Below are positions 21,428 through 40,486 of a stretch of 40,486 bases of DNA, one piece after another. Origin of the DNA: an uncultured Flavobacteriales bacterium. Lineage in GTDB: Bacteria; Bacteroidota; Bacteroidia; Palsa-965. A program made the position numbers and the translations under genes. Below the pieces are notes generated by a model. It searched no databases. It was not told the DNA's origin and was given only the letters and a program-made list of their open reading frames with translations. The stretch lies in assembly GCA_903873905.1 (NCBI GenBank), contig CAIQQJ010000066.1, positions 1 through 40,486 on the forward strand, in the 5' to 3' direction. Positions within the stretch are counted from its first letter, which is position 1; each line of letters opens with the position of its first letter.

Positions 21428-21431
21428 TCAG

Positions 21432-21508
21432 AGGTCCCGTCCAGATTCGAACTGGAGTGGGAGCTTTTGTCCCAACAATTCTGTTGGGACTAAGCCGCTT
21501 GTTCACAC
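21432..21508 (-). pseudogene. Damaged tRNA-Cys copy carrying a hairpin in place of the anticodon arm
   Basis: Positions 21432-21469 are identical to the 3' half of the intact tRNA-Cys (discriminator U, acceptor 3' strand, T arm and 3' anticodon-stem strand). Instead of the GCAGAGCTCTG of the anticodon arm, the minus strand has the self-complementary 20-mer TCCCAACAGAATTGTTGGGA (21470-21489). Beyond it a diverged D arm is recognisable (AAGCGGCTTAG versus GAGCGGCTAGG). The 5' acceptor strand is lost: it would fall in the U tract of the upstream terminator. It cannot form a normal cloverleaf or read Cys codons. It has an exact copy of the tRNA terminator behind it. Confidence 0.85.
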
Positions 21509-21545: not shown

Positions 21546-21547
21546 AG

Positions 21548-21618
21548 AGGTCCCGTCCAGATTCGAACTGGAGTGGGAGCTTTTGCAGAGCTCTGCCTAG
21601 CCGCTCGGCCACAGGACC
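21548..21618 (-). tRNA. tRNA-Cys (anticodon GCA)
   Basis: Read on the minus strand. The acceptor stem GGTCCTG pairs with CGGGACC. The D arm is GCC-GAGCGGCTA-GGC. The anticodon arm GAGCT-CTGCAAA-AGCTC carries the anticodon GCA. The variable region has four bases, and the T arm is TCCAG-TTCGAAT-CTGGA. Position 73 is U, the identity base known for cysteinyl-tRNA synthetase. CCA is not encoded. A TACTTTTG -7 box precedes it, and a GAAA-tetraloop terminator follows. A damaged copy with its own copy of that terminator lies directly downstream. Confidence 0.95.
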
Positions 21619-36861: not shown

Positions 36862-36890
36862 AAAAAAAAGTCCCACAATATGTGTGGGAC
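36862..36890 (-). terminator. Intrinsic terminator of tRNA-Arg
   Basis: GTCCCACA and TGTGGGAC form an eight-pair stem (36870-36890, loop of five), followed on the minus strand by a run of eight U (36862-36869). Because the stem is symmetric and AT-flanked, it might also slow plus-strand transcription from the PLP-enzyme gene. Confidence 0.85.
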
Positions 36891-36897
36891 CAACTTG

Positions 36898-36971
36898 TGA
36901 CACCGGAGGGATTCGAACCCCCAACCAACAGTACCGGAAACTGCCATTCTATCCAGTTGAACTACGGTGCC
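36898..36971 (-). tRNA. tRNA-Arg (anticodon CCG)
   Basis: Read on the minus strand. The acceptor GGCACCG pairs with CGGTGTC, with discriminator A. The D arm contains AACTGGATAGAAT. The anticodon arm GCAGT-TTCCGGT-ACTGT carries CCG, which reads the Arg codon CGG. The T arm is GGGGG-TTCGAAT-CCCTC. CCA is not encoded. A partial copy of its 5' half, with an inserted hairpin, lies directly upstream, between the tRNA and its candidate promoter. Confidence 0.95.
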
Positions 36972-36986
36972 AATATTTTAATTTTT

Positions 36987-37038
36987 TGCCATTCTATCCA
37001 GTTGTCCCGAAGGGATCCCTATGGGAAACTACGGTGCC
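36987..37038 (-). pseudogene. Partial tRNA-Arg copy with a 22-bp hairpin inserted in the D arm
   Basis: On the minus strand this repeats the first 30 bases of tRNA-Arg exactly (GGCACCGTAGTT, then CAACTGGATAGAATGGCA). A clean 22-base insertion (37005-37026) splits it between D-stem bases 12 and 13. The insert reads TCCC-AT-AGGGATCCCT-TC-GGGA, a self-complementary hairpin with a perfect 10-bp palindrome at its core. Sequence after the anticodon-stem start is missing. It lies in the predicted leader of the tRNA-Arg transcript. Confidence 0.9.
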
Positions 37039-37065
37039 AATAGGGAAAAAACAATCTTCTTTGCG

Positions 37066-37073
37066 CAAAGATA
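37066..37073 (-). promoter_or_regulatory. Candidate -7 box for the tRNA-Arg transcript
   Basis: The minus strand reads TATCTTTG (TAnnTTTG), 27 bases before the partial tRNA-Arg copy. If this is the promoter, the partial copy is transcribed ahead of the intact tRNA. Confidence 0.45.
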
Positions 37074-40404: not shown

Positions 40405-40486
40405 CCGCGTGAGGGATAGTAGCGGTTACCCTCCCAACAGAAATGTTGGGACGAGGAGTAATAGCGGATAGCCCGACCTGAGGCAC
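40405..40486 (+). ncRNA. Structured repeat/ncRNA candidate, copy 2, carrying a TCCC...GGGA hairpin (cut by window end)
   Basis: The flanks GCGTGAGGGATAGTAGCGG and AGCGGATAGCCCGACC match copy 1 at 35506. Between them the arm is extended by TCCCAACAGAAATGTTGGGA (40432-40451), further paired by CCTC/GAGG. That 20-mer differs by one base from the hairpin inside the damaged tRNA-Cys copy. The outer closing stem partner lies at or beyond the window edge (the last bases are GGCAC). Confidence 0.6.

Follow-up and report, generated by a model that had tools for sequence, protein, structure and literature searches.

Upstream of the tRNA-Arg(CCG) gene in the stretch of DNA analysed here (below, the window: 40,486 nucleotides of a contig from an uncultured Flavobacteriales bacterium) lies a truncated copy of the gene's own 5' half, and this copy is interrupted by exactly 22 bp that form two abutting small hairpins. 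The recurrence of such structures across tRNA genes, relatives and distant phyla suggests a small insertion element of a kind not yet described. The reading that we favour, with a probability of roughly 60%, is that a tandem partial duplication of the tRNA was followed by the structure-directed insertion of a tiny, mobile-like palindrome. The features are listed in Table 1.

Table 1. Features of the tRNA-Arg(CCG) and tRNA-Cys loci (window coordinates)
Feature	Position	Strand	Basis
Intact tRNA-Arg(CCG)	36897..36971	-	ARAGORN and Rfam RF00005, 58.5 bits
A/T-rich spacer (15 bp) between intact tRNA-Arg and copy	36972..36986	-	sequence
3' part of truncated copy, CAACTGGATAGAATGGCA, tRNA positions 13-30	36987..37004	-	exact 18-nt repeat
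22-bp double hairpin TCCCATAGGGATCCCTTCGGGA, clean insertion	37005..37026	-	sequence comparison with parent tRNA
5' part of truncated copy, GGCACCGTAGTT, tRNA positions 1-12	37027..37038	-	exact 16-nt repeat including TATT
TATCTTTG, Bacteroidota-type -7 box upstream of copy	37066..37073	-	sequence
Terminator-like hairpin GTCCCACACATATTGTGGGAC and T run 3' of tRNA-Arg, also with TCCC...GGGA ends	36870..36890	-	
3' half copy of tRNA-Cys, anticodon arm replaced by TCCCAACAGAATTGTTGGGA hairpin	21431..21500	-	
Intact tRNA-Cys, parent of the downstream 3' half copy	21547-21618		

On the minus strand, positions 1-30 of tRNA-Arg(CCG) are present a second time, with the insert between positions 12 and 13. 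When the 22 bases are deleted in silico, the parent tRNA is restored letter for letter and the boundary is unique; no base has been lost and no target sequence duplicated. Copy and parent also share a TATT (37039-37042) beyond the copy's span of about 36987-37038. An earlier, sequence-only reading had described a clean 22-bp hairpin insert that splits the D arm of a duplicated tRNA-Arg 5' half at the boundary GTT / CAACTGG, in a copy located between a short sequence box and the intact tRNA. We can confirm this description: both flanks match the parent exactly, removal of the 22 bases gives an unambiguous result, and the copy does sit between the -7 box and the tRNA. That reading had treated the insertion as a local case; the insertion is real, but it turned out to be one member of a recurrent class that includes other tRNAs, relatives and other phyla. 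Equivalent structures were found in independent assemblies, which argues against the duplicate being an assembly artefact. At the very start of the contig (window 5-56) there is a perfect 52-bp palindrome, TCTGAACATAAAAAAGTCTCCTGAAATTTCAGGAGACTTTTTTATGTTCAGA, which may be an assembly end effect.

Next, we looked at the inserted unit itself. It consists of two 11-nt hairpins, TCCC-ATA-GGGA and TCCC-TTC-GGGA, each with a 4-bp stem and a 3-nt loop. Folding of the insert as RNA predicts a single nested hairpin that contains two small internal loops (-8.3 kcal/mol), and therefore "double hairpin" should be understood as a sequence grammar and not as a proven structure. While the exact 22-mer occurs only once in the 3.93-Mb genome (and not once by chance in 100 shuffles of the window), the pattern TCCCN3GGGA is found there 81 times, as compared to 6 times for the reversed control pattern. 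Reading 40 distinct contexts of this pattern in the same genome, we found that in 23 of them another perfect 4-3-4 hairpin adjoins directly (distance 0), versus 0-3 at each of the distances 1-15; two adjacent hairpins are thus a dispersed unit in this genome. The second halves are variable (CTCCTTCGGAG, CCACATAGTGG, TTCCTTCGGAA and others). A longer dispersed repeat, GCGTGAGGGATAG...GAAAGCCCG, harbours many of the double hairpins; it also exists in insert-free versions (L074; window 40408-40486). The latter segment of the window belongs to a dispersed repeat, GCGTGAGGGATAGTAGCGG...GGATAGCCCGACC, whose internal hairpins are interchangeable, and many genome copies of this repeat contain a 22-bp double hairpin. 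In the class, the strict TCCC doublet is rare (1 of 395 genomes). Four viral contigs (L046-L049) match the loose pattern TCCCN3GGGATCCCN3GGGA.

In three genomes, eight insertions could be verified against uninterrupted sequence. Seven are exactly 22 bp long and one is 21 bp long; three of the eight lie in a single tRNA-Ser(TGA) copy, and one occupies the loop of a different double hairpin. The tRNA-Ser(TGA) copy belongs to the genome of the window (contig C145); its three clean 22-bp insertions are situated in the leader, behind G1 and in the anticodon loop. The same genome also has a 99-bp tandem array of tRNA-Arg(TCT) copies (C62, C89), which carry TCCCGRAGGGACTCCTTCGGAG exactly in the anticodon loop. 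Within the window, the 3' half copy of tRNA-Cys lies downstream of its parent; its palindrome is of the TCCC...GGGA type, and the terminator region has been duplicated as well.

The same insertion sites are seen in other phyla. In 3' copies of tRNA-Val from Melioribacteraceae, TCCCAAAGGGACTCCTTTGGAG interrupts the T loop between GGTTC and GAATCC, and an LCP-89 tRNA-Val(TAC) 3' copy has the same T-loop insertion, GGTTC^GAATCC, as judged by eye. Also by eye, we find CCCCAAAGGGGTCCCCACGGGA in the T loop of Neomarinimicrobiota tRNA-Leu 3' copies, one of them with a second, nested 22-bp unit, and a nested insertion in an LCP-89 tRNA-Val(CAC) copy. In tRNA neighbourhoods that were fetched for their tRNAs alone, and not selected for double hairpins, the strict form gave ten hits in four genomes, all of them within a tRNA copy or its duplicated leader. 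The exact 22-mer of the window is present in 16 stretches of FCB-group MAGs, where we estimate that about 0.03 would be expected. These sites are biased to palindrome centres (p = 0.006), although several of them show no palindrome; for the seven tRNA-copy sites alone the bias is not significant (p = 0.26). Since the TCCC/GGGA stems are fixed and only six loop bases vary, repeated origin of the exact 22-mer, rather than its horizontal spread, is possible.

We wanted to know how frequent partial tRNA copies are. With a threshold of 13 nt or longer, partial self-copies flank 5/34 tRNAs in the genome of the window (G000), 6/36 in a genome of the same genus (G003) and 12/57 in one of the same family (G007), that is, 23 of 127 tRNAs, whereas comparing the flanks with foreign tRNAs at the same threshold gave 26 matches in 5512 pairings (about 0.5%). 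For the same tRNAs, a scan for copies bridged by an insert returned 20 cases against 0-3 in controls. Stems of 5 bp or more are present in 16 of these 20 inserts (shuffles: mean 3.9, maximum 9), and in most of the bridged copies the palindrome is located at a tRNA loop. Copies were also found in G002 (4/9 tRNAs), G005 (2/20), G008 (1/5), G019 (2/16), LCP-89 (1/14), Neomarinimicrobiota (1/14), Melioribacteraceae (2/14) and CSMAG_1571 of the Bacteroidota (2/14), and none in G006 (0/10), G009 (0/2) and six other Bacteroidia genomes (0/77); for each genome from outside the family 6-19 tRNAs were sampled, and the fractions are rough. All these counts are lower bounds, because the 13-nt criterion overlooked two LCP-89 tRNA-Val copies. 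With few exceptions, 5' pieces lie upstream of the tRNA and 3' pieces downstream of it, which is what a tandem duplication that has one of its ends within the gene should give.

Partial tRNA copies are a known by-product of integration and are common in prokaryotes (PMC9897764), while palindromes at their loops are unreported in the literature that we searched. Potentially, the copies could be footprints of integrative elements that used a tRNA as attachment site and were later lost, the hairpins being incidental decay. The tRNA-Cys 3' copy, which begins near the anticodon and comes with a duplicated terminator, would fit this explanation, and so would the small GIY-YIG genes that lie between copy and tRNA at tRNA-Ser in G000 and beside tRNA-Met in G003. 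Like attachment-site fragments, the structures described here are partial tRNA copies near an intact tRNA. On the other hand, this explanation fits 3' copies better than 5' copies that stand upstream, 15-50 bp from the tRNA and behind the same promoter, with palindromes at their loops. An attachment-site copy would be expected to border an integrated element that carries an integrase; no integrase or island was seen beside tRNA-Arg, where the ORFs between 33 and 40.5 kb are, by eye, chromosomal genes. Furthermore, neither the 16 of 20 palindromic bridged inserts nor the exact, loss-free 22-bp loop insertions would be explained. We therefore regard lost integrative elements as an unlikely source of these structures.

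As the sequence-only reading had suggested, we compared the tRNA-Arg locus in close relatives with regard to the order of events. G003 and G007 share the syntenic gene order PLP-lyase / tRNA-Arg(CCG) / PorZ-like, and in both genomes the tRNA has upstream copies with other palindromes (TCCCGATAGCTATCGGGA in the D or anticodon loop). No copy is present at the same locus in G002, G005 and G006, which belong to the same genus as the window; the presence of the copy thus differs between relatives, as do the copies and hairpins themselves between species. Given these different palindromes and the genomes that have none, the tRNA-Arg copies seem to have arisen repeatedly and independently, with hairpins that vary from lineage to lineage. 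The simplest order would be a duplication that was followed by the insertion, because the same insertion in the only functional tRNA would disable that tRNA.

Does the copy have a function? That it is transcribed as a leader, as had been proposed, is plausible, since it lies between the -7 box and the tRNA. Similar -7 boxes are found upstream of tRNA copies at L170 (TATCTTTA) and L190. The suggested competition for RNase P is doubtful, as both the T arm and the 3' acceptor strand are missing from the copy. One could imagine a functional leader RNA, in which the transcribed 5' half and its grafted hairpin tune the folding or processing of the adjacent tRNA. In favour of this, the copy occupies the interval between -7 box and tRNA in the window as well as in two relatives; three species have it at one and the same syntenic locus; and folding predicts that its GGCACCG mispairs with the 3' acceptor strand of tRNA-Arg. 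The predicted native acceptor pairing is 0.97 without the copy, 0.43 with a plain copy and 0.56 with copy and insert, figures that come from an energy model only and ignore co-transcriptional processing. However, the copy is absent from this locus in three genomes of the genus, the sequence and the site of the hairpin vary between species, 3' copies lie downstream of a terminator, and the z-scores for RNA fold stability are unremarkable. We find a functional leader improbable; the tRNA-Arg copy is probably a non-functional, co-transcribed leader. Finally, template switching at a quasi-palindrome might have made the insert in place, since ATAGGGA in the insert has its reverse complement, TCCCTAT, in the upstream leader, but three insertions in a single tRNA-Ser copy and a 22-bp grammar with partly identical halves at unrelated sites and in other phyla, with no local template noted, make this very improbable.

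For duplication followed by insertion, we propose the following course of events, reading movement from the comparison of copy and parent. A tandem duplication would have placed a truncated version of the 5' half of the tRNA in the tRNA-Arg(CCG) leader, and a 22-bp double hairpin of a dispersed family would then have entered the copy at the D arm, with neither duplication nor loss of the target. Such elements have the form N4-N3-N4' N4-N3-N4', often with TCC...GGA ends, and would preferentially enter loops or palindrome centres, namely the D, anticodon and T loops of tRNAs and the loops of each other. This preference suggests an enzyme that acts on extruded or single-stranded hairpins. Partial copies presumably tolerate inserts that a functional tRNA cannot, which may be why inserts accumulate there.

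The breaks behind the partial duplications may come from small GIY-YIG nucleases that cluster with tRNAs. Of 13 small GIY-YIG ORFs, 8 are no more than 250 bp away from a tRNA (binomial p ~ 1e-15), and four of the six tRNAs near such genes have partial copies (p = 0.01); there is no GIY-YIG gene at the tRNA-Arg locus of the window. Homing-type cleavage of tRNA genes is an attractive candidate for the origin of the duplications. Small GIY-YIG-like ORFs adjoin tRNAs with partial self-copies at L134, L154, L189, L218 and L293, the last with a 57-nt tRNA copy that has no hairpin and a GIY-YIG identity read by eye. As to mobilisation, Y1 transposases were considered and rejected: 18 Y1 loci of about 2-3.3 kb each were inspected and were free of double hairpins to a distance of about 1.5 kb from the genes. 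No mobilising enzyme came to light at these loci. In its full extent, the picture would be that of a gene-less 22-bp element that inserts by structure into hairpin loops, creates no target duplication, is found across several FCB phyla and is linked to some process that partially duplicates tRNAs, perhaps by tRNA-linked GIY-YIG nucleases; we put this forward tentatively, as something less than an even bet.

If true, few if any mobile-like DNA units with exact ends would be smaller than this one, and the empty sites next door would allow its mode of movement to be read from sequence. It would also provide a bacterial counterpart of the mitochondrial double-hairpin elements, whose mobility is unexplained. 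The tRNA neighbourhoods in these bacteria appear to be shaped by repeated partial duplication, and tRNA-like fragments at such loci should not be annotated as genes.

A literature search that covered few subscription papers returned nothing about the sequences themselves or about hairpins in the loops of tRNA copies. We compared the elements with known systems. Bacterial REP sequences, which are associated with RAYT (Y1) transposases, are likewise short, dispersed intergenic palindromes. Unlike REPs, the elements described here are not single stem-loops tagged by GTAG/CGTC, they insert in the loops of tRNA copies, and no double hairpin was encountered at the Y1 loci examined. In LCP-89, GCACCGGACTAAAGTTCCGGTGC palindromes stand on both sides of a Y1 transposase gene (L363), and at L045 a double hairpin lies in the loop of such a palindrome. 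The insertion sequence IS1272 recognises an inverted repeat rather than a sequence as its target and makes no target duplication (PMC5678879). The proposed structural choice of target is reminiscent of this, and target duplication is absent here, too; however, IS1272 is a full insertion sequence whose transposase deletes the target, whereas the present elements are 22 bp long and gene-less, and their clean cases are loss-free. The double-hairpin elements (DHE) of Allomyces mitochondria and the repetitive hairpin-forming elements (RHE) of sponges are considered mobile by a means as yet unexplained (PMC2800124). As described there, they are also very short, consist of two abutting hairpins, and are dispersed in non-coding DNA and in those parts of RNA genes that tolerate them; in the text that we read, a tie to truncated tRNA copies or to an exact length of 22 bp is not reported. 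They are organellar and seem to differ in sequence and size from the elements of this bacterial genome. In summary, the 22-bp elements appear to resemble DHE in their way of working and IS1272 in their targeting, which we understand as a likeness to both and not as membership of either.
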